From contig NZ_CP014275.1 in NCBI RefSeq assembly GCF_001578105.1, positions 4,368,501-4,432,500 of the forward strand: a stretch of 64,000 nt of DNA, read 5' to 3'. The notes under the pieces were generated by a model that worked only from the letters and a program-made list of their open reading frames with translations, did no database searches and had not been told where the DNA came from. The stretch comes from Martelella sp. AD-3. Its GTDB lineage: Bacteria > Pseudomonadota > Alphaproteobacteria > Rhizobiales > Rhizobiaceae. The first letter of the stretch is position 1. Every line of letters starts with the position of its first letter. The translations under genes were made by a program, and so were the position numbers. Below, one piece after another: positions 45,332 to 64,000 of the stretch.

Positions 45332-45408
45332 ATAAGTAATAGCTATAGAACAATAGCATGCTCAAGCCATTCGCATGCTCATAGCACAATGCTATAGCAA
45401 ATTCTTAT
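45332..45408. promoter_or_regulatory. Complex operator between the DUF1932 gene and galB
   Basis: Outer inverted repeat ATAAG-n5-GCTATAG (45332-45348) / CTATAGC-n5-CTTAT (45392-45408). Inside are a direct repeat GCATGCTCA at 45356-45364 and 45373-45381 (17-base pitch) and a small palindrome ATAGC-n5-GCTAT (45381-45395). AT-rich, in the divergent promoter. Probably bound by the double-HTH LysR regulator. Confidence 0.7.
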
Positions 45409-45485
45409 GGCCGCGCCGCAATCCGAAATTGTCATCGCAGGCGCCCCGGCGTCAGATGCGGAACAATGGAATAACGGAGGAAACC

Positions 45486-46223: not shown

Positions 46224-46274
46224 AAGAGCGGGTTCACGCGCCGAAAGGCGCGCAATCAAAGGGGAGGAACAGGA

Positions 46275-47246
46275 ATGACGACGGAGCCAACAAATCCGAG
46301 CTTCGACATCGCCCATCTCGGCCATGTGGAGGTGCTGACCAACAGGTTCGAGGAAAGCCTCGACTTTTTCACCCGGATCTACGGGTTGAAGCTGTCCGGA
46401 CAGGACGAGCATTCCGCCTATCTGAGGGCCTGGGACGATTATGAATATGCGACGTTGAAACTGACGAAGTCCGACACCACGGGCGTTGCCCATATCGGCT
46501 ACCGGGCCGCTTCCCCGGAAGCGCTGGAACGGCGCGTCGCGGCGATCGAGGCCTCCGGTTTCAAGGTGATCGGCTGGAATGACGGGGACCTGAGCCACGG
46601 CCGGGCCTTTCGTTTCGAGGACCCCTTCGGCCATGTCTTCGAGATCTATTACGACACCAATTGGTACGAGCCGCAGGAGGAGGCGGAAAAGGCGGCGCTG
46701 AAGAACACGGCATCCGCCTTTGCCGGCATGCCGCCGCGCCGCCTCGACCATATCAACCTGCTCTCCGAAGACGTCACCGAATTCCGCCGCTTCATGATCA
46801 CCTGCCTCGGCGCGCGGGTGACGGAATATATCCTTCTCGACAATGGCCGGCTCGGCGGCTGCTGGTTCACCATCAACAACAAGAGCTATGACCTTGCCTG
46901 CACCGAAGAGCATGGCGGCGGCAAGGGACGACTGCATCACGTGACCTATGCCACCGACCAGCGCGAGGACATTCTGCGCGCCGCCGACATCTTCCTGCAG
47001 AACGGCGTCCACATCGAGACGGGGCCGCACAAACACGCGATCCAGGGCACCTTCTTCCTTTATGTCTGGGAACCGGCGGGCAACCGCGTCGAGCTCGCCA
47101 ATGCCGGTTCCCGCCTCGTTCTGGCGCCGGACTGGCAGCCGGTCTGCTGGACCGAGGCAGACCGCAAGAAGGGCCAGGCCTGGGGACTGAAGACGATCGA
47201 GAGCTTCCATACCCACGGCACGCCGCCGGTTGCCGGCAAGGAGTGA
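46275..47246 (+). CDS. VOC-type extradiol ring-cleavage dioxygenase
   Basis: 323 aa with two VOC domains, the length of catechol 2,3-dioxygenases. The catalytic C-terminal domain keeps the Fe(II) ligands: His159 (RRLDHINLL), His222 (RLHHVTYA) and Glu273 (NRVELAN). It should open an ortho-diphenol ring at a position next to the hydroxyls. It is a second, unrelated ring-cleavage enzyme beside LigAB, inside the galB-galC-galD block, 51 bases after galB and 3 before the aldolase. Its substrate is not assigned. Confidence 0.88.
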   Translation: MTTEPTNPSFDIAHLGHVEVLTNRFEESLDFFTRIYGLKLSGQDEHSAYLRAWDDYEYATLKLTKSDTTGVAHIGYRAASPEALERRVAAIEASGFKVIGWNDGDLSHGRAFRFEDPFGHVFEIYYDTNWYEPQEEAEKAALKNTASAFAGMPPRRLDHINLLSEDVTEFRRFMITCLGARVTEYILLDNGRLGGCWFTINNKSYDLACTEEHGGGKGRLHHVTYATDQREDILRAADIFLQNGVHIETGPHKHAIQGTFFLYVWEPAGNRVELANAGSRLVLAPDWQPVCWTEADRKKGQAWGLKTIESFHTHGTPPVAGKE

Positions 47247-47249
47247 AGG

Positions 47250-47957
47250 ATGAGCACGGATAGCCTCAAACTGGCGCCGGGAACGCCCGGCTATGTGATC
47301 CGGAACGTTCCGCGCGCCGACGGCGCCGTCATTGACGCTCTTGGCAAGGCAGGCGTTGCGACCGTGCACGAGGCGCAGGGCCGCATTGGCTGCCTTTCCG
47401 CCTCTCTCCGGCCGATCTATCGTGGCGCGCAGATCGCAGGCTCCGCCGTCACCATTTCGGCAGCGCCCGGCGATAACTGGATGATCCATGTGGCGATCGA
47501 ACAGCTTCAGCCGGGGGACATCCTGGTGCTCGCCCCGACCAGCCCCTGCGACAACGGCTATTTCGGCGATCTTCTGGCAACCTCGGCAAAGGTGCGCGGC
47601 TGCCGCGGCCTGATCATCGATGCGGGCGTGCGCGATACGAAAGACCTTGAGGCGATGGATTTCCCCGTCTGGTCGAAGGCCGTCAGCGTCCAGGGCACGG
47701 TCAAGGAAACGCTCGGCTCGGTCAATGTGCCGGTCATCTGCGGCGGCCAGTTGATCGAGGCGGGCGATATCATCATCGCCGACGATGACGGCGTCTGCGT
47801 CGTGAAAAGGGCGGAGGCCGAAAAGGTGCTGGCGGCCGCCGAAAAACGTCTCGACAACGAGGAGATGAAGCGCAAGCGGCTCGCCGCCGGCGAACTCGGC
47901 CTCGACATCTACGACATGCGCCCGCGCCTTGCGGAAAAGGGTCTTAAATATGTCTGA
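47250..47957 (+). CDS. ligK: 4-carboxy-4-hydroxy-2-oxoadipate aldolase (RraA fold; LigK/GalC-like)
   Basis: 235 aa, RraA-like fold. The active-site segment [18 protein letters not shown] carries the conserved Arg128-Asp129 pair, and [20 protein letters not shown] and [16 protein letters not shown] are typical of the HMG/CHA aldolases. It cleaves the hydrated product into pyruvate and oxaloacetate. Its end overlaps the tautomerase gene by 8 bases. With GalB and GalD it completes the lower part of the gallate pathway. Confidence 0.92.
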
Positions 47958-49011
47958 GGAGGGCATACCGTGCCTCTGGATGCGCGGCGGCTCGTCCAAG
48001 GGCGCCTATTTCCTCGCCACCGACCTGCCGGACGAGAAGGCCGCGCGCGACGATCTGCTGCTGCGGATCATGGGCTCGCCCGATCCGCGCCAGATCGACG
48101 GCATCGGCGGGGCCGATCCCCTGACCTCGAAAGTGGCGATCCTGTCGCCGCCATCGCGCGGTGATGCCGATGTCGACTACCTGTTCCTGCAGGTCTTCGT
48201 CGACAAGCCGCTGGTGAGCGACAAGCAGGGCTGCGGCAATATTCTGGCCGGCGTCGGCCCGGCGGCGATCGAGCGGGGGCTTGTGCCGGCGACCGGCGAG
48301 CGGACCGAGGTCAGGATCCACATGGTCAATACCGGCGAGATCGCGGTCGCGCGGATCGAGACGCCCGGCGGCAGGGTCAATTATGCAGGCGATGCCGAGA
48401 TCGCCGGCGTGCCCGGCCGTCATGCGGCGATCCCGCTTCTCTTCAAAAATATTGCCGGCGCCATGTGCGGCGCGCTTTTGCCCACTGGCAATGCGGCCGA
48501 CGCGATCGAGGGCGTGAAGGCGACGCTGATCGACAACGGCATGCCCTGCGTCATCCTCCGGGCGGAGGATTTCGGCCTGACCGGCAAGGAAGAGCCGGAG
48601 GCACTGGAAAAGGACACGGACCTCAAGAAACGGCTCGAGGCGATCCGGCTGAAGGCCGGGCCGATGATGGCGCTCGGCGACGTGACGGAGGCCTCGGTGC
48701 CGAAGATGACGCTGGTCTCGGCGCCGGAAAATGGCGGTTCGATTGCCACGCGTTCCTTCATTCCGCACAGGGTCCATGCCGCCATCGGCGTCTTCGCCGC
48801 CATCTCGGTGGCAACGGCGACGCGGATCGAAGGGTCGGTGGCGAAGGGGCTGGCGGTCGATCCGGGCGACGGCAATTATCTGGTCGAGCATCCGACCGGG
48901 GCGCTGGACGTGTTTCTCGACATCGGCGCGGACGGCGAAATCCTCGGCGCCGGCAATCGCCGCACGGCCCGCAAGCTGTTCGACGGGCGCGTGTTCCCGC
49001 GCGAGGCATGA
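47950..49011 (+). CDS. galD: 4-oxalomesaconate tautomerase (PrpF family; LigU/GalD-like)
   Basis: 353 aa of the PrpF/diaminopimelate-epimerase fold: [20 protein letters not shown] at the N-terminus, [19 protein letters not shown], and a second conserved loop [20 protein letters not shown]. LigU and GalD of this family tautomerise the keto-enol forms of 4-oxalomesaconate before hydration. The ATG at 47950 lies inside the end of the aldolase gene. It ends 6 bases from the convergent actR. Confidence 0.9.
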
Positions 49012-49792: not shown

Positions 49793-50185
49793 CTATCCGC
49801 TCAGCCGCACAAGGGCGGAGAGGACGTCGGAGCGGCGCAGCAGGCCGACTAGCCGGTTGCCGTCGGTCACCGGGAAAACACGGTGCGGATGGGCGATGAA
49901 GGCCTCGGCGGCGGCGACCAGATCGGCGCTTGCCGGAAGGCTGATGACGTTGCGGCTCATGTAATCGGCGACGGTGCCCTTCCATTCCTGGTAGTAGCTC
50001 GCCTGGAGGGCGGGGTTGAAACAGTCCTTCTGGGTGAGGATGCCGCAAAGCGCGCCGCCCTCATCGACAACCGGCGCTGCCGCCGCCTTGCTTTCGACCA
50101 GAAGCGCCACCGCCCGGCGGATCGGCATTTCGGGCGTGACGGTCAGCGCGTCGGTCTTGGCGATTTCCGCGATCGTGTCGGTCAT
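49793..50185 (-). CDS. CBS-domain pair protein
   Basis: 130 aa made of two CBS repeats (TVTPEMPIRRAVALLVESKA ... GGALCGILTQKDC and ISLPASADLVAAAEAFIAHP ... GNRLVGLLRRSDVL). CBS pairs bind adenine nucleotides and regulate a partner. It is the last gene of the nqr operon and overlaps the nqrM stop by 4 bases, so it may sense energy charge or NADH for that complex. That role is inferred. Confidence 0.88.
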   Translation of the reverse strand: MTDTIAEIAKTDALTVTPEMPIRRAVALLVESKAAAAPVVDEGGALCGILTQKDCFNPALQASYYQEWKGTVADYMSRNVISLPASADLVAAAEAFIAHPHRVFPVTDGNRLVGLLRRSDVLSALVRLSG

Positions 50186-50349
50186 TCGGATTGCCTCGAC
50201 AGGCGGTTCGGGCAGCCCTCGCAGGCGGCCTCCTTCATGCAGGCCATGCCGCCGCACGAGCCCTTCAGCGGGCCGCGCCCGACGAAGAGGCCAATGCCAA
50301 GGCCGGCCATGCCGAGAACGACGATCGCGATTGCCAGCAGGATTTCCAT
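50182..50349 (-). CDS. nqrM: Na+-NQR maturation factor NqrM
   Basis: 55 aa. One transmembrane helix (MEILLAIAIVVLGMAGLGIG) and the cysteine cluster SCGGMACMKEAACEGCPNR, the signature of NqrM (DUF539), which helps place iron between NqrD and NqrE. The ATG at 50349 is preferred; the frame to 50430 has no family sequence. It sits between apbE and the CBS gene, as an accessory of the nqr operon. Confidence 0.9.
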   Translation of the reverse strand: MEILLAIAIVVLGMAGLGIGLFVGRGPLKGSCGGMACMKEAACEGCPNRLSRQSE

Positions 50350-50371
50350 GTCCGTGCTCCCTTCGAGGCGA

Positions 50372-51388
50372 TTATAGCAGAAAACGGTCGAAACCGCCCG
50401 TTGTTTCACGCCTGAGGCCTTGGCCCTCATGGAAGAGGAAGAGGGCGGCGATCGACTGGCGGCGGGCCAGCGCCGGGCCGTCCTCGCCGGCGGCCGTCAG
50501 CGCCGTCGCCCAGCCGTCGGCCGTCATCGCGTCTTGCGCCAGAACCGAGACCGAGGCGATCGCGCCCTCGACCGGCACGGCATGGCGCGGATCGATGATG
50601 TGGCTGTAGGTATGGCCGGAAAGCGCATAGCTCTGGGCGCGAAGCCCGGAGGTCGCGACAGCGCCGTCGGCAAGCCGCAGCACGCCGGCGCCGCCATTGG
50701 CTTCCGGCCGCGGATCTTCCACCGCCACCTGCCACGGACGTCCCGCCGGATGATTGCCGCGCGCGACCAGCTCGCCGCCGAGATCGATGAGAAAATCGGA
50801 ATAGCCGGCGTCCATCAGGCGGTTTGCCATCAGGTCGAGCGCGCGGCCCTTGGCGATGCCGCAGAGATCCATGGTGACCCCGGCTTTGGTCTTTCCGAGC
50901 CGGTTTCCGTCGACGGCAAGCGCATGCCAGAGCGGCGGCGCGCCATCCTCGGCGGCCACGCCCTGGATCGGGCCGAAGCCGTAGCGGGCAACCAGCGGGC
51001 CGACGCTCGGATCGAACCAGCCGTCGCTCTTTCGCGCGACATCGAGCGCCGATTGGGCAACGAAGGCGGTTTCGGCAGATACCCTCCTTTCGCCGGGACC
51101 GGAGCGGTTGAAGCCAGTGATCTCGCTGTCTTCGCGCCAGGGCGACATCATCCGGTCGATGCCGGAAAGAAGCGCTTCGATATCGACGCGAAGCGCTTCG
51201 GGCCGGGCTTTGTCGGACACGCTGACGCGCCATGTGGTCGCAAAGGCCTCGCCGGTGATCTGCTGCGTCGCGGGCGCGGATTTCAGGATCGCGGGCGCTT
51301 CGGCCCGGGCAGCGGTTGCGGCCAGAAGACCTGCTCCGGAAAGCGCCAGAACGCGGCGGCGGGTCAGGTATGTATGACGTGCGTTCAT
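50372..51388 (-). CDS. apbE: FAD:protein FMN transferase ApbE
   Basis: 338 aa. A Tat-like signal (TRRRVLALSGAGLLAATAAR), then the ApbE fold: FATTWRVSVSD, MSPWREDSEITGFNRS, KAGVTMDLCGIAKGRALDLM, IDLGGELVARG and TYSHIIDPR. It attaches FMN to threonine in NqrC (and usually NqrB) in the periplasm. It lies 3 bases after nqrF in the operon. Confidence 0.93.
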   Translation of the reverse strand: MNARHTYLTRRRVLALSGAGLLAATAARAEAPAILKSAPATQQITGEAFATTWRVSVSDKARPEALRVDIEALLSGIDRMMSPWREDSEITGFNRSGPGERRVSAETAFVAQSALDVARKSDGWFDPSVGPLVARYGFGPIQGVAAEDGAPPLWHALAVDGNRLGKTKAGVTMDLCGIAKGRALDLMANRLMDAGYSDFLIDLGGELVARGNHPAGRPWQVAVEDPRPEANGGAGVLRLADGAVATSGLRAQSYALSGHTYSHIIDPRHAVPVEGAIASVSVLAQDAMTADGWATALTAAGEDGPALARRQSIAALFLFHEGQGLRRETTGGFDRFLL

Positions 51389-51391
51389 GGG

Positions 51392-52618
51392 TCAGACTCC
51401 GAAATCGTCGTAGAAGATGGACTTCGGCTCGACGCCGAGCCGGTGCAGCGTGGCAGTCACCGCCGAGATCATCACCGGCGGTCCGCACATATAGTATTCG
51501 CAGTCCTCCGGTGCCGGATGGCGCGAAAGCTCGGCGCGCACGATATCATGGATGAAGCCGCTTGCGCCCGTCCAGCGGTCGCCGGGCGCGGGATCGGAAA
51601 GCGCCGGCGTCCACGAGAAATTGTCGTGCTCGGCGGCGATCTTCTCGAACTCCTCGACATAGAACAGGTCGGCGACCGAGCGCGCGCCATAGAAATAGCG
51701 CATCCGCCGTGGCGTGTTCTTGCCGATCTGGTCGTGGATCATGGCCCTCAGCGGCGCCATGCCGACGCCGCCGCCGATGAACACCATCTCGCGATCGGTC
51801 GGCTGCACTTCGAACTCGCCGAAGGGCCCGGAGGCCTCGATCTCGTCGCCCGGTTTCAGCGCGAACAGAAAGGAGGAGACGATGCCGGGCGGAATTTCCT
51901 GTTCGCGGCCGGGGGGCGGGGCGGCAAGGCGGATGTTGAAGACGGCGCGCTCGGCCTTTGCATCCTCCGGCCTGCAGGCGATCGAATAGGCCCGTGTAAC
52001 GGATCTTTCGGCATAGGAGGTCATTTCGGACCAGCCGGACATCGCCCATGCCTCGCGGAAGGGCGGGTCGATGTCGATATCGCGGAAGTCGAGCCGGTAG
52101 GCGGGCGCGGTCAGTTGCATGAAGCCGCCGGCGATGAAATCGAACGGCTGGCCTTCGGGAAGCTGCAGCACCAGTTCGCGGATCAGCGGCGCCTTCATCG
52201 TGTTGGAGACGACGCGGCAGGTAAAGCCCGTCGCGCCGACGAAATCCTGCGGCACCGTCACCGAACAGGGGCCTCTGAGCGCCGTCTGGCAGGCAAGGCG
52301 CATATGGGCGCGACGTTCGGCGGCAGACAGCACGCCGCGTTCGGTCGCCTGCGGTTCGCCCGCGCCTTCGCCGTCCACATGAACGCGGCAGAGCCCGCAG
52401 GTGCCGGAGCCGCCGCAGGCCGCCGGAATGCCGATCCCCGCGCCGTGGAGGACGCCGAGCAGGCGGTCGCCGCGATTGGCAGTGATCTCCATGGTTTCGT
52501 TGACCGTCACCGTCAGCGCCTCGGCGGGGATCAGGCGTGCGCGGGTCATCAGGAGCGCCAGCGTGAGCACGAGGACAAGGCCGACGACGACAAGGGCTCC
52601 GACTGCGATCTCGTTCAT
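51392..52618 (-). CDS. nqrF: NQR-type NADH dehydrogenase subunit F (NADH-oxidising)
   Basis: 408 aa. One N-terminal membrane helix (IAVGALVVVGLVLVLTLALL), a [2Fe-2S] domain with Cys ligands CGGSGTCGLC and the fourth in LACQT, an FAD domain (RAYSIAC) and an NADH domain (FIGGGVGMAPLRAMIHDQIG, YYMCGPPVM). It is the electron entry point of the complex. Its start overlaps the nqrE stop by ATGA. Full length for the family. Confidence 0.95.
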   Translation of the reverse strand: MNEIAVGALVVVGLVLVLTLALLMTRARLIPAEALTVTVNETMEITANRGDRLLGVLHGAGIGIPAACGGSGTCGLCRVHVDGEGAGEPQATERGVLSAAERRAHMRLACQTALRGPCSVTVPQDFVGATGFTCRVVSNTMKAPLIRELVLQLPEGQPFDFIAGGFMQLTAPAYRLDFRDIDIDPPFREAWAMSGWSEMTSYAERSVTRAYSIACRPEDAKAERAVFNIRLAAPPPGREQEIPPGIVSSFLFALKPGDEIEASGPFGEFEVQPTDREMVFIGGGVGMAPLRAMIHDQIGKNTPRRMRYFYGARSVADLFYVEEFEKIAAEHDNFSWTPALSDPAPGDRWTGASGFIHDIVRAELSRHPAPEDCEYYMCGPPVMISAVTATLHRLGVEPKSIFYDDFGV

Positions 52619-53226
52619 GACGTCACCATTTGCGCAAATGCGGAAAAGCCGAGGGACATCATTCCGGCAAGGGTGAAGGTGATGCCGAGCCCGCGCAGGC
52701 CCTGCGGCAGGTCAGCATAGGAAAGCCGGGCGCGGATCGCGCCGAGCAGAACGACGGCGACGCCGAAGCCGAAGCCCTGGCCCAGCCCGAAGACAGCCGA
52801 TTCACCGATGCCATAATCGCGGTCGACCATGAACAGGCTGCCGGCGAGAATGGCGCAATGCACGGTCAGAAGCGGCAGGAACACGCCGAAGGAGGCGTAG
52901 ATCGCCGGAAAGAAACGGTCGAGCACCATTTCCACCAGCTGCACGGTCGCGGCGATGACACCGATGAAGGAAATCAGTTTCAGATAGGAAAGATCGATCT
53001 CCGGCATGCCGGCCCAGGCCCAGGCGCCGGGCGCGAGCAGCGCGTGATAGATCACCTGGTTGAGCGGCACGGTGACGCCCATGACGGCGGTGACCGCGAT
53101 GCCGAGGCCGATGGCTGACGCCGTGCGGCGCGAGAGCGCCAGAAAGGTGCAGAGCCCGAGAAACAGCGTCAGCGGCGCATTCTCGACAAAGGCGGCGCTG
53201 AGGAACAGGTTCCAGAGGTCGGTCAT
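52615..53226 (-). CDS. nqrE: NQR-type subunit E
   Basis: 203 aa, six hydrophobic segments. Contains the membrane cysteines expected to hold the iron shared with NqrD: FLGLCTFLALS and LLTVHCAILAGSLF. Further family segments are FVENAPLTLFLGLC and GLGQGFGFGVAVVLLGAIRA. It carries electrons across the membrane. It overlaps nqrF and nqrD by 4 bases at each end. Confidence 0.94.
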   Translation of the reverse strand: MTDLWNLFLSAAFVENAPLTLFLGLCTFLALSRRTASAIGLGIAVTAVMGVTVPLNQVIYHALLAPGAWAWAGMPEIDLSYLKLISFIGVIAATVQLVEMVLDRFFPAIYASFGVFLPLLTVHCAILAGSLFMVDRDYGIGESAVFGLGQGFGFGVAVVLLGAIRARLSYADLPQGLRGLGITFTLAGMMSLGFSAFAQMVTS

Positions 53227-53888
53227 TTTCCGGCCTCCTCTGTCTTCGGCGGGTTGAACTCCGAGGGTTCGGCCTGCTGCGGCAGCACCGTGCGCACGGC
53301 CCAGACAAGGCCTCCAAGCATGAAGAAGGCGCTCGGGGCGAGCAGCATCAGGTTCAAGGGCGTGAACCAGCCGCCGTCCGCGACCACGGGAAAGACCTGA
53401 TAGCCCATCAGCTTGCCTGCGCCGAAGAGTTCGCGTGCCGAACCGATGACGATCAGCACCAGCGAATAGCCTAGCCCGTTGCCGAGCGCGTCGACCATGG
53501 AGGGCAGCGGCGGGTTGGAGCGCGAGAAGCTCTCCGTGCGCCCCAGCACCAGGCAGTTGGTGGTGATCAGGCTGACGAAGACCGAAAGCTTGCGGCTGAT
53601 GTCGAAGAAATAGGCCTGCAGGAACTGGTCGATGACCACCACCAGCGAGGCGACAATGACGATCTGCACGATCAGGCGGATGGAATCGGGGATATGGCGG
53701 CGGATCAGACTGACCAGCATGGCCGACAGCACCAGTACCGTGGTGAGCGAGGCCGACATGGTCAGCGCCGTTGCCACCGAGGTGGTGACCGCAAGCGCAG
53801 AGCAGATGCCGAGGATCTGCAGCGTCACCGGATTTTGCAGGACGAGCGGCTCCGTCAGCGTCGACCAGAGATTGGTTGACCGGGCCAT
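53223..53888 (-). CDS. nqrD: NQR-type subunit D
   Basis: 221 aa, six hydrophobic segments, with the paired cysteines ILGICSALAVTTS and LITTNCLVLGRTE that bind iron with NqrE. Also FVSLITTNCLVLGRTESFSR and SMVDALGNGLGYSLVLIVIG of the family. I chose the ATG at 53888, 1 base after nqrC ends; the frame to 53930 overlaps nqrC without family sequence. Confidence 0.94.
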   Translation of the reverse strand: MARSTNLWSTLTEPLVLQNPVTLQILGICSALAVTTSVATALTMSASLTTVLVLSAMLVSLIRRHIPDSIRLIVQIVIVASLVVVIDQFLQAYFFDISRKLSVFVSLITTNCLVLGRTESFSRSNPPLPSMVDALGNGLGYSLVLIVIGSARELFGAGKLMGYQVFPVVADGGWFTPLNLMLLAPSAFFMLGGLVWAVRTVLPQQAEPSEFNPPKTEEAGK

Positions 53889-53889
53889 A

Positions 53890-54690
53890 TCAGAACTCCC
53901 CGCGCTGGACGGCGTCGATGAATGGGCCATAGCCCTCGGGCCCGCCCCAGAAGCGCATGATCTTGGTGAACGCGTTGCCGGTGCGTGTGGCGCCGGTTAT
54001 GCCGTCGACCTCGTAATCATTGCCGGCCGCGCCCTTGGCGACGGCAAAGCGGACGGTGCCGGACGGATCGGCAAGCTCGGTGCCGGGGAATTGGGCGAGC
54101 CATGCCGGCTCCTCGATGCGCCCGCCGAGGCCGGGTGTTTCGGCCTGGTTGGTGATCGCAAGGCCTGCAATCGTGTTCATGTCGCCGCGCAGTGCCACGA
54201 TCGCGTCGATCGGCGCCTGATAGCCCGGGCCGGTTACCGGCAGCAGGGCCAGCGAGATATCGCCGGCTTCGTTTCGAAGCAGGTAGATCTGCGCGTAGTC
54301 CGGCCTCCGGCCGATGCCGGCCGTGTCTTCCGCGGGCGACAGCGTGGTCCAGTTGGCCGCGTCGTCAAGGGCTGCGGCAAGGGTTTGCGGCGTCACGTCC
54401 TGTGCCGCCCGTCCCTTCGGCAGGTTGATCACCACGGTGGACAGCGAACCGCCGGATTGCTCGAGGATCTGCGTCATGCCGGGAATGCCGGCGACCAGCG
54501 CCTCAAGCCGGGCCTGTTCCTCCGCCGCCCGGTTGGCCGCCTGGATCGGCCGCAGGATCACGGTAGCGCCGGAGACCATCAGGGCGCAAATGGCGGAGAC
54601 GAGAAAGGCGATGACGACGGTCTTTGTCCGGTTTTCATTGGGCAGCGCCAGAAACCGGCGCCAGGCCGAGAACGGATTAAGGTCAGCCAT
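53890..54690 (-). CDS. nqrC: NQR-type subunit C (covalent FMN)
   Basis: 266 aa. One N-terminal membrane helix (TVVIAFLVSAICALMVSGAT) and a periplasmic FMN-binding domain. The flavinylation motif is DGITGATRTGNAF, with the second Thr of GATRT as the expected FMN ester site. ApbE in the same operon would attach the flavin. The ATG at 54690 overlaps the nqrB stop by 8 bases. Confidence 0.93.
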   Translation of the reverse strand: MADLNPFSAWRRFLALPNENRTKTVVIAFLVSAICALMVSGATVILRPIQAANRAAEEQARLEALVAGIPGMTQILEQSGGSLSTVVINLPKGRAAQDVTPQTLAAALDDAANWTTLSPAEDTAGIGRRPDYAQIYLLRNEAGDISLALLPVTGPGYQAPIDAIVALRGDMNTIAGLAITNQAETPGLGGRIEEPAWLAQFPGTELADPSGTVRFAVAKGAAGNDYEVDGITGATRTGNAFTKIMRFWGGPEGYGPFIDAVQRGEF

Positions 54691-55459
54691 GACGTCTTCT
54701 CCTTTGGGCAAGCCACAGCGCAATGGCGGCTTCGTCCAGCAACGGGGCGGCAAGCGAGGTCAGAAGGGCCGCGGATACGGCCATCTGCACGGGAGCGGCG
54801 CTCTGCCAGCCGAGCGCGAACAGGATGATCAATGCGCCGAAAAAGGCGCCGTTGAGCCAGCCGCCGAGCCTTGTCGAGGCGCTTGCAACGGGATCTGCGA
54901 CGAGCAGGACCAGCACCACGGCAACCGCCGGAAGCAGGGGTGCGACCGGCACGCCGGCGAAATGGGCGCCGCCGATGACGATGACCGCACCCGCGATCGC
55001 GCGCGCCGGCATCACCCCGAAAAGCGCGCCGAGCAGGGCGGCCGGTATCGCGGCCCAGGCCAGCGGCAGCGGCAGATCCGGCCAGGGCGCGGTGACGAAG
55101 CCGAAGCCGAGAAAGGCGAGCGTCACCGTTGCCGGGTTCAGCACGTTTCGGCCCCAGCCGCCGAAGACGAGCTCGGCCATGACCGAGCCGAAAGAGATAC
55201 CGAGAACGAGCTGCACGATGCTGAGCTCCTCCGGCGCGAGGATTGCGATCGCAAGCGCCGTCAGCGCGCCGGCGAAGGAAGGCGGCTGGGCGCGGGCGAG
55301 CATGAAGATCACGTGCCAGAGCCCGGAAATGATCAGCGCCAGCACCAGAAGGCCTGCGGCATCGAGCCCGCCATACCAGAGCCATGTCAGCGCCAGTGGC
55401 ATCACCGAGATCAGCAGAAGCAGGGCGACGGTTTCCCGGTCCCACAAGCCGTGGCTCAT
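54683..55459 (-). CDS. nqrB: Short NQR-type subunit B
   Basis: 258 aa, whereas family NqrB has about 400. It keeps the RnfD/NqrB core: WGRNVLNPATVTLAFLGFGF and ADPVASASTRLGGWLNGAFF with the final AAPLLDE. It lacks the long N-terminal part and, between residues about 110 and 150, I see no SGAT-type motif for the covalent FMN-threonine. About eight membrane helices remain. The gene overlaps nqrA (ATGA) and nqrC. A complex built on it would have fewer cofactors than classical Na+-NQR, and its coupling ion is uncertain. Confidence 0.85.
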   Translation of the reverse strand: MSHGLWDRETVALLLLISVMPLALTWLWYGGLDAAGLLVLALIISGLWHVIFMLARAQPPSFAGALTALAIAILAPEELSIVQLVLGISFGSVMAELVFGGWGRNVLNPATVTLAFLGFGFVTAPWPDLPLPLAWAAIPAALLGALFGVMPARAIAGAVIVIGGAHFAGVPVAPLLPAVAVVLVLLVADPVASASTRLGGWLNGAFFGALIILFALGWQSAAPVQMAVSAALLTSLAAPLLDEAAIALWLAQRRRRHG

Positions 55460-56724
55460 GCCGGTGCCTCCTCTTTCTCAATGGCGTTCAGAAGTCCGCG
55501 CAACTGCGCGGCAAGCGGCGGCTCGGAGAAGGTGACGTAGTCAACCAGCGCCAGGTCCTCCTCAAGCAGTGAAAGCGCGCCAAGGCGGGCGGCGGCCTCC
55601 TGGTCGCCGGCCGAAAGCGCGCGCATCAGGGCGGCAGCGGGAATATCGCCGCCGAAAGCCTGCGACAGGGCGGCCGTCGGGATGATCGGCAGCGGCCGGG
55701 CGGCGCGGGTGAGCGCCGCGGAAAACCAGTGGCCGCGCCTCTTGCCCGATCCGCGGGACAGAACGCTCGCCTGCCGGTCGCGCGGGCCGAGCCAGTGGGC
55801 GGGCCTGCCGTCCAGCACGGAGCCGGCAAGCACCTCATAGGGGCCCGGCTGCACATGGCCGTGACAGAGCCCGCGCAGGTCCGCGCCGGGCTGGCAGCGC
55901 AGCAGGCGCGGTTCGCGCATGGCCGAACCGGTGACGGTCACGAGCCGGGTCTCGGGCAGAAGGCCGGTTGCGAGAAGGTCGCCGAGATCGGCGATATCCT
56001 CGGCATGAATGTCCCAGACGCGGCCATCGATTGCGGCGGGCGCATGGTGGTGGATCTTTATGCCGGCGAGGCCCTGCGGGTGGAGCGTCCCACAGGCGAT
56101 GCGGCGGATGCCGGCCGCGTCGTCGAGGTCAAGAGACCTGCCCTTCGTCTCGCACAGGAAGACCTGATTGCCCGCCAGAAGCCTCAACGCGGAAAGGCCG
56201 CGCGATATGGCCTCCTCGCGGCCCCGGATGGCGTTTCGCGGATCGGGGGCCGCGGGCCGGGTGTCGGCGGCCATGACGAAGATCGCGGCGGGCGTTTCGG
56301 CGAGGGCGGGCATATGGCCGAAGGGCCGGCTGCGGAAAAGCCGCCACAGGCCGGCCTCCTGCATCAGGGCGCGCAATGCCGCAGCATCGCTTTCGGCCCT
56401 GTCGGTTTCAAAGGAATGCCGGCCGCCGCCGTCTTCGCGAAACAGCAGCATCTGGATCAGCCTGCGTCCGGGATTGAGCTCGATCGCCGCCACCCGCGCC
56501 GGCATGGGCGCGACAAGCTTGATCTCCTCTGCCGCGCGCAGCGAGAAGAGCGGCTGGCCCTGGGCAACGCGCTGGTCGACCTCGACCAGCGGCACGACCC
56601 GCAATTCCTCGCCGCGGGCAGGCGTAAGCGCCGCCTCTTCTGTCAGGAGCGTTTGGGCAGCGTGGTCGTCTGGCAATGAGGGGCCGGTCGGCACGGACAG
56701 GCCGGCGGAAAAGAGGCGGTCCAA
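55456..56724 (-). CDS. nqrA: NQR-type subunit A
   Basis: About 422 aa. The N-terminus AGLSVPTGPSLPDD corresponds to the GLDLPIAGTP start of NqrA, followed by the lipoyl-like part (DQRVAQGQPLFSLRAAEEIK, LVAPMPARVAAIELNPG) and VTVTGSAMREPRLLRCQPGA. It is a soluble subunit facing the cytoplasm that assists quinone chemistry. I propose a TTG start at 56724, 8 bases after GGGAG; the open frame reaches an ATG at 56814 with no NqrA-like sequence before. The start lies inside a run of eight T, which could be prone to slippage. Confidence 0.85.
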   Translation of the reverse strand: MDRLFSAGLSVPTGPSLPDDHAAQTLLTEEAALTPARGEELRVVPLVEVDQRVAQGQPLFSLRAAEEIKLVAPMPARVAAIELNPGRRLIQMLLFREDGGGRHSFETDRAESDAAALRALMQEAGLWRLFRSRPFGHMPALAETPAAIFVMAADTRPAAPDPRNAIRGREEAISRGLSALRLLAGNQVFLCETKGRSLDLDDAAGIRRIACGTLHPQGLAGIKIHHHAPAAIDGRVWDIHAEDIADLGDLLATGLLPETRLVTVTGSAMREPRLLRCQPGADLRGLCHGHVQPGPYEVLAGSVLDGRPAHWLGPRDRQASVLSRGSGKRRGHWFSAALTRAARPLPIIPTAALSQAFGGDIPAAALMRALSAGDQEAAARLGALSLLEEDLALVDYVTFSEPPLAAQLRGLLNAIEKEEAPA

Positions 56725-56850
56725 AAAAAACACTCCCAAGGCTTGGCGCCGGACAATCAACTCGTGCCGACAATTGAATTGCCGGGACGGACTGAATTGT
56801 TTAGCATGCAGCAAGCACAGACTATGAATTTTCAGTGGGGGTGAAAAGCC
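56725..56850. promoter_or_regulatory. Divergent promoter of the nqr operon and the pentaheme cytochrome gene
   Basis: 126-base gap with the inverted repeat ACAATT (56770-56775) / AATTGT (56795-56800) and lower GC than its flanks. It must hold promoters for both units, so they are probably co-regulated. GGGGG near 56840 serves the cytochrome gene. Confidence 0.6.
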
Positions 56851-58029
56851 ATGTCTTATGGAGTGAAGCGGTTTTCTTCATTTTTCGTTGCTGTTATTGC
56901 AGCGACATTGACATTTGTCAATTCCGGCAGCGCTTCCGCTCAGGACGACGGAAACGGCGAGGCGGCCGTGGAAGCCCTTGAACTGTTCGTCATGCCACAG
57001 TCCGGGCCGTTCCGTCCGGACCAGATCTCGATCCCGCAGCAAAAGATGATCGAGGCCTGGGCGCGCTCCGCCCATGCCGATGCCTCGGCCGAGGCCTTTA
57101 CCCACTGGGACGGCGAGGGCGAGGTGCCGGCGAGCTGTTCCACCTGTCACTCGGGCGCGGGCTTCCGCGCCTTCCACGGTCTCGACGGCAGCGAGCCCGG
57201 CGTGGCCGCCGCCGTGCCCGTCGGCGGCGTCGTCGATTGCGAGACCTGTCACAATCCGGGTCTCGCGGAGATCACCGCGATCACGTTGCCGAGCGGCATC
57301 GAGCATCCGGTCAAGCCCGGCGTGGAAGCGGCCTGTCTCACCTGTCACTCCGGCCGGGCCGCCGGCGTGACGGTTTCCAGGGCCGTCGGCGACAAGGCCG
57401 ATGACACGCCGGACCCGGAGATCGGCTTCGTCAACCCGCATTATGCGCTGGCCGGCGCCCTGCGCCTCGGCGCCGTCGGGGCGGGAGGCTTCGAATATCC
57501 CGGCAAGACCTATTCCGGCCGCTTCTTCCATGCCCGTCCGGTGGCCGATTGTGCTTCCTGTCATGATCCCCACACGCTGACGGTCGCGGAAGAGACCTGC
57601 CTTACCTGTCACGAGACCGGCAATTTCGACGCGATCCGCATTTCCCGCGTCAGCTATGACGGCAGCGGCGACCTCAACAAGGGCATCCGCTCCGATATTG
57701 CCAGCAATGCGGCGTTGCTGATGGAGACCCTCCGGGATTACGCCGCCAATGTCGCCGGGACGCCGATCGTCTACGAACCGCATTATCCCTATTTCTTCGT
57801 CGACGCGGATCAGGACGGCCGCGCCGACGAGGTTGACGGGCGGACGGCGAGCTACAAGGCCTGGACGCCGCGCAGCCTGAAGGCGGCCTATAACTGGAAG
57901 TTCGTCACCGCCGATCCCGGCGCCTTCGCGCATAATCCGCAATACGCGCTGGAACTGCTCTATGATTCGATCGAAGACCTTTCGGGGCCGCTTGAGGTCG
58001 ATATCAGCGCATTGGGGATCCAGCGCTAA
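56851..58029 (+). CDS. Secreted pentaheme c-type cytochrome
   Basis: 392 aa. Signal peptide YGVKRFSSFFVAVIAATLTF with cleavage near ASA-QDD. Five heme sites CxxCH at Cys96, Cys130, Cys162, Cys234 and Cys250 (CSTCH, CETCH, CLTCH, CASCH, CLTCH). The C-terminal 135 residues have no heme but carry a DADQDGRAD calcium-loop-like motif. I do not recognise a named family; it looks like a periplasmic electron carrier or multiheme oxidoreductase. It is divergent from nqrA and the only cytochrome in the area, so it is the natural partner of the nqr complex. Confidence 0.88.
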   Translation: MSYGVKRFSSFFVAVIAATLTFVNSGSASAQDDGNGEAAVEALELFVMPQSGPFRPDQISIPQQKMIEAWARSAHADASAEAFTHWDGEGEVPASCSTCHSGAGFRAFHGLDGSEPGVAAAVPVGGVVDCETCHNPGLAEITAITLPSGIEHPVKPGVEAACLTCHSGRAAGVTVSRAVGDKADDTPDPEIGFVNPHYALAGALRLGAVGAGGFEYPGKTYSGRFFHARPVADCASCHDPHTLTVAEETCLTCHETGNFDAIRISRVSYDGSGDLNKGIRSDIASNAALLMETLRDYAANVAGTPIVYEPHYPYFFVDADQDGRADEVDGRTASYKAWTPRSLKAAYNWKFVTADPGAFAHNPQYALELLYDSIEDLSGPLEVDISALGIQR

Positions 58030-59014: not shown

Positions 59015-60280
59015 ATGGCGGTGACGGCGGGCGAGCGCAACCGGGCGCTGTTTCTGGGCAGTATGGGCGGCGGCCTGGAATTCTACGACTTTGTGATCTA
59101 CGCCACATTCGCCTCGCAGATCGGCAAGACCTTCTTTCCGGCCGAAGAGGCGTCGACCCGACTGCTTGCGGCTTTCGCCGTCTTTGCCGCCGGCTATCTG
59201 GTGCGCCCCATCGGCGGCATTCTGTTCTCCCATTTCGGCGACCGGCATGGACGCAAGTTGATGTTGCGCGTCTCGATCGCCGGCATGGCGGGGGCCACCT
59301 TTCTGATCGCCTTCATGCCCGGCTATGCCACATGGGGCATCTCGGCCACCGTCGCGCTGGTCGTGCTGCGCATGGTGCAGGGGCTTTGTCTCGGCGGCGA
59401 AATTCCCGGGGCGATGACATTGATCACCGAAACCATGCCGAAGCGGCGCGGCCTTGCCTGCGGCTTCCTGTTCATGATCATCAATGTCGGCATGCTGGCC
59501 GCCCAGGCGGTGCAATGGGCGATCGAGCACCTGTTGAGCGATGCGGCGGTGCTCTCCTATGGCTGGCGCATCGGCTTCTTCATCGGCGGACTGGTGGCGA
59601 TTGCCGGCTTCATCCTGCGCGCGCGGCTTGCCGAGAGCCCCGCCTTCGCCGAAATGGAGGCATCAACCCACAAGGTGCCGCTGGCGGCGCTCTTCCGCGA
59701 CAATGCCCGCGCCGTTTGGCTCGGACTGTTCATCACCGGCCTTGGCGCTGCCGCCGTGCCGCTGCTCTACCTCTACATGAACAGCTATCTGACGGATTTC
59801 CTGCATTACGATCCGGACCAGGTGGCAACCGCCGTTCTCGTCGGCATCATCGTCTTTTCGCTGCCCATGCCTGTCGCCGGCGCCATTTCCGATTTCGTCG
59901 GTATCAAGGTGCCGGCCTTCGTCGCCGCCCTGCTGTTGGCGATCGCGGCCATCCCCGTTTATGTCTGGATCCATGAGGGCGTGTCGTCGCTCCTGCCGGC
60001 CATGATCGTGATCTCGCTGATCGGCGCCTTTGCCTGGGGCGTGGGTCCGGTGCTGCTGACGGCAATCTTCCCGACAGACGTGCGCTATTCCGGCGTCGCC
60101 TTCGTCTACAATATCGGCTTTGCCATTGTCGGCGGGCTGACGCCGCTTCTCGCGACCTTCATCATCCAGCAGACGGGTTTCACGCTCGCGCCCGGCTTCC
60201 TGCTGGCCGTCTTTGCCGCGCTCGCCACGGTCGCGATCTTCCTGACCCAGGTCATCCCGGCAGAGAAGTCTCAGCTCTGA
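59015..60280 (+). CDS. MHS-family MFS transporter
   Basis: 421 aa with twelve hydrophobic segments. The start FLGSMGGGLEFYDFVIYATF and the loop SHFGDRHGRKLMLRVSIAGM, followed by LRMVQGLCLGGEIPGAMTLI, are those of the metabolite:H+ symporter group (ProP, ShiA, KgtP). It takes up an organic acid or similar compound. The ATG at 59015 follows GGAGGGCGAG. The gene ends convergently, overlapping the actS stop by 10 bases. Substrate unknown. Confidence 0.9.
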   Translation: MAVTAGERNRALFLGSMGGGLEFYDFVIYATFASQIGKTFFPAEEASTRLLAAFAVFAAGYLVRPIGGILFSHFGDRHGRKLMLRVSIAGMAGATFLIAFMPGYATWGISATVALVVLRMVQGLCLGGEIPGAMTLITETMPKRRGLACGFLFMIINVGMLAAQAVQWAIEHLLSDAAVLSYGWRIGFFIGGLVAIAGFILRARLAESPAFAEMEASTHKVPLAALFRDNARAVWLGLFITGLGAAAVPLLYLYMNSYLTDFLHYDPDQVATAVLVGIIVFSLPMPVAGAISDFVGIKVPAFVAALLLAIAAIPVYVWIHEGVSSLLPAMIVISLIGAFAWGVGPVLLTAIFPTDVRYSGVAFVYNIGFAIVGGLTPLLATFIIQQTGFTLAPGFLLAVFAALATVAIFLTQVIPAEKSQL

Positions 60281-61578
60281 TCGGCCATATCCGCCTCCAT
60301 CCGCCAGCGCGGCCAGGAGACGGTGATGCGCGCGCCGCCGACATTTTCGAAGGAAAGGCGTGCGCCCGAGCGTTCCAGAAGCGTCTTGGCGATGAACAGA
60401 CCGAGGCCCAGACCGCCGGCGCGGCTGTCCGCCGGGTTCTTCTGCCGATCGGAAACGAAGGGGTCGCCAATGCGCGGCAGGATATCCGGCGTGTAACCGC
60501 CGCCGTCATCGGTGACGGTGATCGTGACCCGCGTCTCGCTGTAATGCGCCGCAATCTCCACCTTTTGGCGGGCATGTTCGACGGCGTTTTCGATGATATT
60601 GCCAAGGCCGTACAGAATGCCGGGATTGCGATTGCCGACCGGCTCGCCGCCGGTCTCGCCGGAAACGCGGATCTCCATCTGCGAGACAAACGGCCGGTGG
60701 GGCGCGACCACCTCCTCGATCAGGGAGGTCAGCGGCAGGAGCCGCATATGCGCCTCGTCCTCCTTGGAAAGCGACGTGAGGCGGGAGAGTATGTCCCGGC
60801 AGCGCTGGCTCTGGCTGACGAGCAACTGCACGTCCTCGCCATGTTCGGGATCATCGCCAAGCGCCCGCGCCATCTCCTTGGCCACCACCGAGATCGTGGC
60901 AAGCGGCGTGCCGAGTTCGTGGGCGGCGGCCGCCGCCAGCCCGTCGAGCTGGGAGAGGTGCTGTTCGCGCTGCAGCACCAGTTCCGTCGCCGCCAGCGCA
61001 TCCGATATCTGCTGGGCTTCGAGCGTGATCCGCTGGACGTAGAAGGCGGCAAAACCCAGCATGGCGATGATCGCGATCCAGATGCCGAATTTCAGGATCG
61101 GCTCGATCTCCAGTGTGATGCCTGCATGCCATGGCAAGGGAAAGGGGCTGAGCGCCAGGGCCGACACGCCGGATACGGCAAAGGCCAGAAGCGCGAAGGC
61201 ATAATGCAGCGGCAGCGCGGCGAAGGAGATGATCACCGGCACGCAGATCAGCGGCGCGAAGGGATTGGCAAGCCCGCCGGTCAGGTAGAGCAGCGCGGTC
61301 AGTTGCAGTAGATCGAAACCGATCATGGCAAAGGCGATGCGCGGGGACACGCGCTGGGTCGCCGGAAAGCTGACGCTCAGCACCAGATTGCCGAGGGCGA
61401 GCGCGGCAATCAGCGCGAGCACGGGGATGATCGGCATCGGGAAATCGAGCCCGAAGGCCACCGTCAGCGCCGCTGCCGTCTGGCCGGCGACCGCCAGCCA
61501 TCGGAGCCGCACAAGCGTCTGCAGGCGCAGGTTTCCGCGTCGCTCATGCCCCACCATGTCGGTGACCGGCTTGTTCAT
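60271..61578 (-). CDS. actS: Redox sensor histidine kinase ActS/RegB
   Basis: 435 aa. Six hydrophobic segments with the quinone-binding heptapeptide in GGLANPFAPLICVPVI, an H-box with the phosphorylated His in AAAAHELGTPLATISVVAKE, a cysteine in SQSQRCRDILSRLTS where the redox-active Cys of RegB is expected, and ATPase motifs NIIENAVEHA, DDGGGYTPDIL and GGLGLGLFIAK. It senses quinone/redox state and phosphorylates ActR. It follows hrpB by 11 bases. The ATG at 61578 begins the family sequence; the frame extends to 61698 inside hrpB. Confidence 0.94.
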   Translation of the reverse strand: MNKPVTDMVGHERRGNLRLQTLVRLRWLAVAGQTAAALTVAFGLDFPMPIIPVLALIAALALGNLVLSVSFPATQRVSPRIAFAMIGFDLLQLTALLYLTGGLANPFAPLICVPVIISFAALPLHYAFALLAFAVSGVSALALSPFPLPWHAGITLEIEPILKFGIWIAIIAMLGFAAFYVQRITLEAQQISDALAATELVLQREQHLSQLDGLAAAAAHELGTPLATISVVAKEMARALGDDPEHGEDVQLLVSQSQRCRDILSRLTSLSKEDEAHMRLLPLTSLIEEVVAPHRPFVSQMEIRVSGETGGEPVGNRNPGILYGLGNIIENAVEHARQKVEIAAHYSETRVTITVTDDGGGYTPDILPRIGDPFVSDRQKNPADSRAGGLGLGLFIAKTLLERSGARLSFENVGGARITVSWPRWRMEADMADQS

Positions 61579-61589
61579 CGCATTTCTCC

Positions 61590-64000
61590 TCATGTCCCGC
61601 GCGGCTTTGCCCGCCGCGTCGCCTGCGCATTGGCCGGGTCCTCCGGCCAGACATGTTTCGGGTAGCGCCCGCGCATATCCGCGCGCACGTCCCTCCATGA
61701 CCCCGCCCAGAAGCCGGGAAGGTCGCGCGTCGTCTGGATCGGCCGGCCGGCCGGCGAGGTCAGTTCCAGAACGAGCGGCACGCCGCCGGCGATTGCCGGA
61801 TGGCGCTTCAGTCCGTAGAGCATCTGTACCCGGATCGAAAGCACCGGTTCGTCGCCGTCATACCGGATCGGAACCCGGTCGCCGGTGGGCGCCGTAAAAT
61901 GCGTCGGCGCCAGCCGCTCGAGATCGGCGGCAAGCGGGTGGGGCAGAAGCGCCTGAAGGCCCTGCGTCAGGCTTTTCGGACTGACGGCGGAAAGCGCGGT
62001 GATGCCCGCCTGGAAGGGGGTGAACCAGACATCAAGGCTTCGCAGCAGACCCATTTCTGCAACATCCGGCCAGGGATCGCCGAGCTTGCGATGGAGAAAG
62101 CCGATCCGCTCGACAAGATGGGCAGCCTCCTTTGGAAAAGAAAGAAGCGACAGTCCGTAGCGGCGAAGCCCGTCGGCGAGCGCCTCCGCCGCTTCGTTTC
62201 CGGATGGCTTCGCCCCCTGGCGCTCGGAAAGCACCAGCGCATCGAGCCGGGTCACGCTGCGCGCCCTGACGGACAGGCTGTCGCGGTCGAAGACACATTC
62301 CGCGCGGGTCACGATCGCCTCGGCGCGCGCCGCGAGGATGGTTTCCCGTGAAACAGGGCAGGCGGCGAGCACGCGCCCGCGCGCCGCGGAGCCTGTCAGG
62401 TCGGCGACGACGATAAAATCGCAGGCCGCGAGCGGATCATCCTCGGCCAGTTCCGCACCGCGACCATTGGCCATCAGATAGCGGCCGCGTCCGCCGCGGG
62501 CCATGGCGATGCGGTCGAAAAAGGCATGGATCAGGGCCGCGCCCGGATCGAAAGGGCCGCTGCGCCTGCTGCTGCCGCCTGCCGTTTTGGCGATGCGGGC
62601 GGCCAGCCCGCGCGCCGCCTCCGCCCGCGGGCTTTTGTCGGCGCGAAACCGCCGGAGCCGTTCGGAAAGGTCGATACTGGTGCCGCCAAGCCCCTGTTCG
62701 GTCAGAAGCACCGCAAGCTCGGCCGCAGGCAAGGCCGTGCCGCTTTCAGCCGCCTTGACGACCATGCCCGCAAGGCGCGGCGGCAGGGGGATGGCGCGCA
62801 GCCGCTCGCCGGACGGCGTCAGCCGCCCTGCGGGATCGAGAGCCCCGAGCGAATGCAACAGCTTGCGCGCCTCGGCAAGGGCGGGCCCCGGCGGCTGGTC
62901 GGCAAAGGAAAGCTGGGCGGGATCGACGACGCCCCAATGGGCAAGATCGAGCGCCAGGCCGGTGAGGTCGGAGGACAGGATTTCCGGCGGATTGAAGGCG
63001 GGAAGGGCGGCCGTCTGGCCCTCGTGCCAGAGCCTGAGCGCAATGCCCGGCGCGGTGCGGCCGGCGCGGCCGGCCCGTTGATCGGCCGCCGCGCGCGACG
63101 CCCGGACGGTTTCAAGCCTGGTGATCCCGGTCGCCGGCTCGAAGACGGGAAGGCGTTGCAGTCCGCTGTCGATCACCACCCGAACGCCATCGATCGTGAT
63201 CGCGGTCTCGGCAATCGCCGTCGCCAGCACCACCTTGCGGCAGCCTTCGGGCGCGGGGGCAATCGCCGCATCCTGTTCGGCCCGCGACAGGTTGCCGTAA
63301 AGCGGCGCGACGATCACATCGCCGGGAACGCTCGGAGCCAGTCTCTCGGCGGTCCGGCGGATTTCGGCCTGTCCGGGCAGGAAGGCGAGGATCGAGCCCT
63401 CTTCGCGCGTGAGCATGTCAAGCACCGCGGCCGCGACATCATCCTCGATGCGCGAACGCGGCCGCCGCGGCCGGTAGCGGTGTTCCACGGGGAAGGCCCG
63501 TCCGGCACTCTCGATCACCGGGGCGTCGTTGAGAAGCGCGGCGATGCGGCTGGTGTCGAGCGTCGCCGACATCACCAGGATCTTCAGGTCCTCGCGCAGC
63601 CCGGCGCGGATGTCGAGCGCCAGCGCCAGGCCGAAATCGGCATCCAGCGAACGCTCGTGGAACTCATCGAAGATCACCATGGAAATGCCGGCAAGCTCGG
63701 GGTCATCGAGCGCCATTCGGGCGAACACGCCCTCCGTCACCACTTCGATCCGGGTTTTGCCCGAAACCTTGGTATCGAGCCGCATGCGGTAGCCGACGGT
63801 CTCGCCCGGGCTTTCGCCAAGAAGCGACGCCATGCGGAAGGCGGCAGCGCGCGCGGCAAGCCTGCGCGGCTCAAGCAGGATGATCCGCCCCGTGCCGGCC
63901 ACGCCGCTCGTCAGCAGATGCAGGGGAACACGCGTCGTCTTGCCCGCGCCCGGAGGGGCGGCAAGCACGGCCTGGCCAATTTCGCCAAGCGCTGCCGAAA
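61590..64000 (-). CDS. hrpB: ATP-dependent helicase HrpB, 5' truncated by window edge
   Basis: At least 803 aa are visible; the frame is open to the window end, where GEIGQAVLAAPPGAGKTTRV shows that only a short N-terminal part is missing. DExH helicase motifs: APPGAGKTT (Walker A), MVIFDEFHERSLDADFG (DEFH box), VMSATLDT, AIAETAITIDGV and DQRAGRAGRTAPG. The C-terminal HrpB-specific domain ends in GRYPKHVWPEDPANAQ. The cellular role of HrpB is unclear. It precedes actS on the same strand, the order usual in rhizobia. Confidence 0.95.
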   Translation of the reverse strand, partial: SAALGEIGQAVLAAPPGAGKTTRVPLHLLTSGVAGTGRIILLEPRRLAARAAAFRMASLLGESPGETVGYRMRLDTKVSGKTRIEVVTEGVFARMALDDPELAGISMVIFDEFHERSLDADFGLALALDIRAGLREDLKILVMSATLDTSRIAALLNDAPVIESAGRAFPVEHRYRPRRPRSRIEDDVAAAVLDMLTREEGSILAFLPGQAEIRRTAERLAPSVPGDVIVAPLYGNLSRAEQDAAIAPAPEGCRKVVLATAIAETAITIDGVRVVIDSGLQRLPVFEPATGITRLETVRASRAAADQRAGRAGRTAPGIALRLWHEGQTAALPAFNPPEILSSDLTGLALDLAHWGVVDPAQLSFADQPPGPALAEARKLLHSLGALDPAGRLTPSGERLRAIPLPPRLAGMVVKAAESGTALPAAELAVLLTEQGLGGTSIDLSERLRRFRADKSPRAEAARGLAARIAKTAGGSSRRSGPFDPGAALIHAFFDRIAMARGGRGRYLMANGRGAELAEDDPLAACDFIVVADLTGSAARGRVLAACPVSRETILAARAEAIVTRAECVFDRDSLSVRARSVTRLDALVLSERQGAKPSGNEAAEALADGLRRYGLSLLSFPKEAAHLVERIGFLHRKLGDPWPDVAEMGLLRSLDVWFTPFQAGITALSAVSPKSLTQGLQALLPHPLAADLERLAPTHFTAPTGDRVPIRYDGDEPVLSIRVQMLYGLKRHPAIAGGVPLVLELTSPAGRPIQTTRDLPGFWAGSWRDVRADMRGRYPKHVWPEDPANAQATRRAKPRGT

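Follow-up and report, generated by a model that had tools for sequence, protein, structure and literature searches.

A compact NQR-type complex paired with an exported pentaheme cytochrome in Alphaproteobacteria: a probable periplasmic exit for NADH electrons

The standard account of the membrane complex NQR is that of an NADH:quinone reductase whose electrons follow one fixed, U-shaped route. In the Vibrio cholerae enzyme, as described in PMC9325719, electrons pass from NADH through the flavin adenine dinucleotide (FAD) and 2Fe-2S cluster of NqrF, the 2Fe-2S cluster of NqrD/E, the flavin mononucleotide (FMN) of NqrC, the FMN of NqrB and riboflavin to ubiquinone; that account also places the NqrC and NqrB FMNs face to face at 7.8 Å in a closed pocket, and reports that the N-terminal region of NqrB binds quinone-site inhibitors. 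Here we analyse a stretch of 64,000 nucleotides from Martelella sp. AD-3 (contig NZ_CP014275.1, positions 4,368,501 to 4,432,500; the window, meaning this whole stretch) that encodes a compact form of NQR beside an exported pentaheme cytochrome c. Many Alphaproteobacteria carry this pair of elements, and their NADH electrons are probably sent out across the membrane. No description of the pairing was found in open-licence full-text papers.

The module comprises nqrABCDEF-apbE-nqrM-CBS, nine minus-strand genes (49793-56814) that overlap or nearly touch, and, divergent from nqrA, a plus-strand gene (56851-58029) for an exported 392-amino-acid (aa) protein with five CxxCH motifs. These genes lie where a first-pass annotation of the window had located them, and the conserved neighbourhood of nqrA and a pentaheme gene, which it proposed to look for, is borne out. 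Scanning genome contigs with a 16-sequence cytochrome alignment yielded at least 566 confirmed stretches, of which the best 80 were kept (the best 80 loci) and their nqr genes located by tblastn. In 79 of these 80, nqrA adjoins the cytochrome gene on the opposite strand; the sole exception (L045) offers only 288 bases before the cytochrome, where its contig ends. The other components are likewise frequent at the best 80 loci: nqrB at 78, nqrC at 77, nqrD, nqrE and nqrF at 76 each, CBS at 73, apbE at 68, and nqrM, a short gene that is easily missed, at 40.

Genome scans gave a concordant picture. Within a draw of 337 genomes from the class, the cytochrome occurs in two (G000 and G252) and NqrB-type matches in 12, with compact NqrB in the same two genomes and adjacent to the cytochrome. 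Among 198 genomes of the G252 family, 33 have the cytochrome, 54 an NqrB-type match and 27 a compact NqrB, compact being told from canonical NqrB in the family scans by reading the match table for one continuous match versus two pieces. Cytochrome and compact NqrB coincide in 24 of these genomes; in 23 they share a contig and lie a few kb apart at most, and in G643, whose NqrB is a contig-edge fragment, they are split between contigs. Three genomes (G498, G522 and G592) have compact NqrB and no cytochrome, and two (G493 and G497) of the 27 with only a canonical-looking NqrB have the cytochrome, on another contig. The window's own family (151 genomes) holds 11 cytochromes, 10 NqrB-type matches and six compact NqrBs; both elements occur in five genomes, adjacent in all five, and G442 has compact NqrB without the cytochrome. 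The best 80 loci and the family scans thus exclude a pair unique to the window's genome, an outcome that, by the first-pass annotation, would have refuted its idea. Three of five plasmid matches were opened; the module is present on Shinella pShin-01 and on Paracoccus seriniphilus p599725, which suggests that it is mobile as a unit. Roseivivax sediminis has two complete modules on one contig (L031 and L071).

The most distinctive subunit is NqrB. The window's protein (54683-55459, minus strand) has 258 aa and lacks both the N-terminal region and the loop bearing the FMN-linked Thr. Across the alignment, none of 95 compact sequences has a residue in the FMN-Thr column, and all ten canonical ones, which were verified by sequence, have Thr there; the motif [ST]GAT occurs in none of 120 close NqrB homologues, and alignment and structure model agree that the N-terminal region is missing. 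The alignment-column and site counts here and below cover 87 to 95 of 98 compact loci, sequences under the length limits being excluded. The 98 include at least one duplicate, as L089 and L018, both 315,321 bases long, seem to represent a single contig. The alternative that the NQR is ordinary and its NqrB merely mis-called as short is ruled out by the universal absence of the loop and by a median length of 260 aa, the few longer values being open frames that run in upstream. Because G583 and G609 hold compact and canonical NQR together, the compact form is not merely a local version of NQR.

The remaining redox sites are retained. Each of the four 2Fe-2S Cys of NqrF is kept in 92 of 92 sequences, each cluster Cys of NqrE in 91 of 92, and those of NqrD in 85 and 86 of 87. 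At the NqrC position judged from sequence to be the putative FMN attachment, Thr occurs in 87 of 92 sequences and Ser in five.

We propose, with moderate confidence, that compact NQR exports NADH electrons via NqrC to the pentaheme cytochrome. NqrF would oxidise NADH, and the 2Fe-2S cluster of NqrD/E would lead the electrons across the membrane to periplasmic NqrC and its FMN, as in Na+-NQR. Because the NqrB FMN region is lost, and the usual next relay with it, NqrC-FMN would then reduce the exported cytochrome in place of the NqrB FMN, and the cytochrome would either hand the electrons on or itself reduce a periplasmic substrate. The first-pass annotation had suggested that the flavins of NqrC, and perhaps ApbE, exchange electrons with a periplasmic heme wire. 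With a pairing that is real and conserved, exchange between NqrC-FMN and the cytochrome is the simplest reading; ApbE, by family a flavin transferase, finds no support as a carrier. The earlier interpretation is therefore partly supported, and loss of the NqrB FMN region and partner swapping on both halves of the module go beyond it.

This partner swapping became visible when cytochrome relatives sharing about 40% identity were retrieved together with their flanks. Thirteen of them (L092-L095, L097, L098, L104-L108, L111 and L112) are divergent from a NOX/FRE-type reductase of about 490-520 aa that is 61-71% identical to either of two references; Pfam searches on three of the 13 neighbours found Ferric_reduct, FAD_binding_8 and NAD_binding_1. 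By family, NOX/FRE-type reductases move NAD(P)H electrons outward. Such linkage holds for all six cytochrome-only genomes of the window's own family and for six of nine in the G252 family. The remaining three of the nine are L103 (6866-10549), where the cytochrome adjoins a second one with nine CxxCH as well as a membrane protein of b561 type, and L109 and L110, which show no partner beside it. A further relative, on a Defluviimonas plasmid (L120), is flanked by two-component genes with a PepSY/b561/DUF2271/ApbE cluster starting 2.2 kb off. Linkage of the cytochrome to other oxidoreductases without nqr, which the first-pass annotation had regarded as telling against its idea, is therefore found among distant relatives (13 NOX/FRE-linked and four in other settings) and in none of the best 80 loci with a visible neighbour.

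Conversely, four compact NQRs lack the pentaheme (L099, L100, L101 and L102). Two of them have another exported cytochrome in its place beside nqrA: in L102 it is a divergent protein with CxxCH and an EB_dh domain, and in L101 (143-1510) a divergent 113-aa tetraheme cytochrome c (Cytochrom_c3_2) followed by FAD_binding_2 pieces. In L099 (14851-16723), CBS is followed by a member of the nitroreductase family, whose N-terminus is twin-arginine-like, and by a Na/Ca exchanger. In a cytochrome tree of 82 rows, the NOX/FRE-linked members form one group with a support of 99 in the Shimodaira-Hasegawa-like approximate likelihood ratio test (SH-aLRT), and the NQR label needs three changes. The tree was made by a quick method with a midpoint root from rows required to have five CxxCH, excluding the broken cytochrome of L115 and 38 of the best 80 loci (the first five were taken, then every second). 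This grouping suggests that NQR linkage extends across deep branches of the tree and that the NOX/FRE swap looks like a single event. Modules that take NAD(P)H electrons across the membrane are exchanged, like the redox proteins of the periplasm, as interchangeable parts.

The swapped partners bear on two further explanations. A cassette that simply travels whole, its proteins exchanging no electrons, would fit the variable outer flanks and the plasmid-borne copies; we give this account very little credence, because both halves recombine with functionally equivalent partners and not with random genes. Alternatively, electrons could run the other way, a periplasmic donor reducing the cytochrome and the Na+ gradient driving electrons inward to make NADH. 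RNF chemistry is described as reversible (PMC11889175), and direction is not fixed by sequence. We nevertheless judge inward flow highly improbable. No conserved donor enzyme was found next to the module, and the 13 NOX/FRE-type neighbours of cytochrome relatives are outward-running by family. Outward flow, on which the first-pass annotation took no position, is favoured because the alternative partner is NAD(P)H-driven and the NqrB FMN is missing.

The cytochrome has an N-terminus that is Sec-type as judged by eye without a predictor, and its CxxCH motifs start at residues 96, 130, 162, 234 and 250; all fifteen CxxCH motif residues are invariant in 67 aligned cytochromes. The protein also has DxDxDG-type loops. 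Its structure model resembles NrfA and OcwA in the pentaheme core fold and in heme number and order. This predicted resemblance suggests that the cytochrome may itself be a reductase, so that "heme wire" may understate its role. One narrower form of the export proposal holds that it is no carrier but an NrfA-type catalytic reductase, acting on nitrite, hydroxylamine, NO or a similar substrate and supplied with electrons by a compact NQR dedicated to it; we regard this form as rather doubtful. Heme 1 carries CxxCH instead of NrfA's catalytic CxxCK in 67 of 67 aligned proteins, ruling out plain NrfA identity, and OcwA, which bears CxxCH, is reported to reduce nitrite slowly, at 1 per min (PMC6703420). 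No hit of a Foldseek search with the cytochrome model reached E 1e-3, and the model contains no hemes, so that the distal site of heme 1 is not visible in it. Matches of the cytochrome profile to NrfA among solved structures were weak (best E 1.2e-3), with ambiguous heme registration. Five longer relatives that were examined (P0023, P0086, P0101, P0119 and P0120; 667-685 aa, ten CxxCH) consist of the pentaheme unit duplicated in tandem, and one decaheme relative is named from a Sedimentisphaerales metagenome-assembled genome.

Export would not necessarily forfeit energy conservation. In RNF, Na+ movement is argued for RnfA/E, the counterpart of NqrD/E, and not for RnfD (PMC11889175), which implies that compact NQR could keep the pump step, provided that its Na+ likewise moves at NqrD/E. 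A PF00999 exchanger without a TrkA domain flanks 24 of 115 loci (18 of the best 80 and six of the 35 others), a figure that has no base rate. It stands at either module end and in both orientations, usually after the cytochrome and sometimes beyond CBS (for example L079:11193-12362), and also at one NOX/FRE-linked locus (L098). Its presence fits Na+/cation coupling as support, not proof, because it has no base rate and the window has none. Clustering of the flanks revealed no other conserved extra gene and no donor enzyme conserved beside the module; an ABC-type cluster occurs in 15 loci.

The strongest competitor outside the export proposal is that compact NQR still works as an NADH:quinone reductase, with NqrC-FMN passing electrons directly to the NqrB riboflavin and the cytochrome serving a side branch or another co-regulated step. 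Several observations weigh for this route or otherwise against export. Most NqrB riboflavin contacts are kept (T67, N105, N108 and D189 in the window), with variation in distant members, where the N200 column is Asn in 83 of 95 and the N203 column in 73 of 95, and D/E stands in 94 of 95. NqrA is retained as well, whereas RNF has an NADH-binding subunit in its place. For two-subunit Nqr/Rnf-like complexes without the same Thr, a direct FMN-to-riboflavin step has been proposed in which FMN samples a non-covalent flavin site (PMC11334425); loss of the Thr alone is accordingly no proof of export, and the gene evidence does the rest. Among the loci without the pentaheme, L099 has no cytochrome beside nqrA, L100 shows neither a cytochrome nor another partner there, and the flavoprotein frames of L101 look broken. 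The distribution is patchy, G417, the one further genome listed from the same genus, having neither cytochrome nor NqrB. In L096 and L115 the cytochrome gene and nqrA share a strand and are thus not divergent, and in L115 (G499) a stop interrupts the cytochrome reading, the module apparently decaying. Finally, no exchanger stands beside the module in the window. Against a direct quinone route, the NqrB FMN relay of the V. cholerae path described in PMC9325719 is missing, almost every member of the window's clade keeps the cytochrome partner, and electron export better accounts for partners swapped on both sides. We therefore consider that route unlikely and retain export through NqrC as the preferred reading.

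The individual genes of the window support the assignment to varying degrees. The nqrA gene (55456-56814, minus, as are all genes named in this paragraph unless stated) has a divergent N-terminus and an uncertain start: it matches NQRA_2nd (E 4.3e-33) and falls under all NCBIfam nqrA cut-offs, equivalogs included, and its 452-aa reading uses an upstream TTG, the true start probably lying later. Because the frame is counted from that TTG, the gap separating the two divergent frames is short (56815-56850), and the true promoter region probably extends into the counted nqrA frame. NqrB matches PF03116 (60 bits) and no other Pfam domain, under the nqrB/rnfD equivalog cut-offs. The nqrC gene (53890-54690; probable start at the ATG near 54690) encodes the TGAT FMN-attachment motif, with Thr 236 in the numbering of the site comparison, and scores 132.9 bits against a TIGR01938 cut-off of 144. 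The nqrD (53223-53930) and nqrE (52615-53226) products each have two cluster Cys and, like the NADH-oxidising subunit encoded by nqrF (51392-52618; 2Fe-2S Cys; TIGR01941, 434 bits), exceed their profile cut-offs. The flavin transferase gene apbE (50372-51388; 215 bits), an nqrM-like maturation gene (50182-50430; 23.1 bits, cut-off 22) and the CBS-pair gene (49793-50257) complete the operon. The source genome, whose nearest named relatives are Martelella species, also encodes complex I (one nuoD-type match) and has one NqrA-family match genome-wide. Downstream of the module lies a histidine kinase with HisKA/HATPase domains, judged RegB-like (60271-61698). It was rejected as a module member together with an MFS gene and gntK, all three occurring only in Martelella-type loci (regB 4, MFS 4 and gntK 3 of 80). 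A plus-strand row of PIG-L, glyoxalase/dioxygenase, RraA and PrpF genes (45375-49011) is judged to be a cluster of the aromatic-ring catabolic type.

Upstream sites were sought in the divergent gaps of 79 related loci other than the window and compared with 20 single-base shuffles, which do not keep dinucleotides. FNR-like sites (TTGAYNNNNRTCAA, at most one mismatch) occur in 14 of the 79 gaps against a shuffled mean of 0.95 (largest 3), none of them among the Martelella loci listed; RegA-like sites number 15 against 6.9 (largest 12), and CRP-like sites 29 against 28.6.

If the proposal is right, NADH electrons would have an energy-conserving periplasmic exit in common marine and soil bacteria. 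More broadly, and tentatively, the module may represent a widespread alphaproteobacterial Na+-pumping NADH:cytochrome c oxidoreductase that has abandoned the quinone branch, its NqrC-FMN serving interchangeable periplasmic redox proteins, chiefly a pentaheme of NrfA/OcwA fold (reductase or conduit) whose family is served elsewhere by NOX/FRE-type reductases. A natural NQR that lacks the NqrB FMN yet keeps the steps at NqrD/E and NqrC would also permit a direct test of whether Na+ moves at NqrD/E, as the account of RNF in PMC11889175 argues for that complex, or at NqrB.

Comparison with described systems places the module between several of them. With the Na+-NQR of V. cholerae it shares the NqrF 2Fe-2S and NAD/FAD domains, the NqrD/E Cys, the NqrC FMN motif and the NqrB riboflavin contacts; it differs in the absent N-terminal region and FMN loop of NqrB, the divergent N-terminus of NqrA and the co-encoded secreted pentaheme. 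RNF-MmcA of Methanosarcina acetivorans, cited in the first-pass annotation and a fair functional precedent, is likewise described as a Na+ complex of the NQR/RNF type that is encoded together with a multiheme cytochrome, which relays the electrons (PMC11024163; PMC12174285). MmcA, however, has seven hemes and is akin to the octaheme tetrathionate reductases, and its RNF has ferredoxin input, whereas the window combines NQR, NADH input and an NrfA/OcwA-like pentaheme, with NqrF and NqrA where RNF has RnfB and RnfC. The two-subunit Nqr/Rnf-like flavinylated systems (Meheust 2021; mSystems 2024) also have an NqrB-type part without the flavinylated Thr, and outward NAD(P)H electron flow has been proposed for them (PMC8238504; PMC11334425). 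They lack NqrD/E and fuse their NqrB-type domain to an NAD-binding domain, whereas the window has all six subunits, a cytochrome and a 258-aa NqrB consisting of PF03116 only. With NrfA, a pentaheme nitrite reductase, and OcwA, a nonaheme surface reductase, the cytochrome shares the predicted pentaheme-core fold; its 392-aa length, its heme 1 CxxCH in place of CxxCK and its linkage to NQR or NOX/FRE rather than to nrf genes set it apart.

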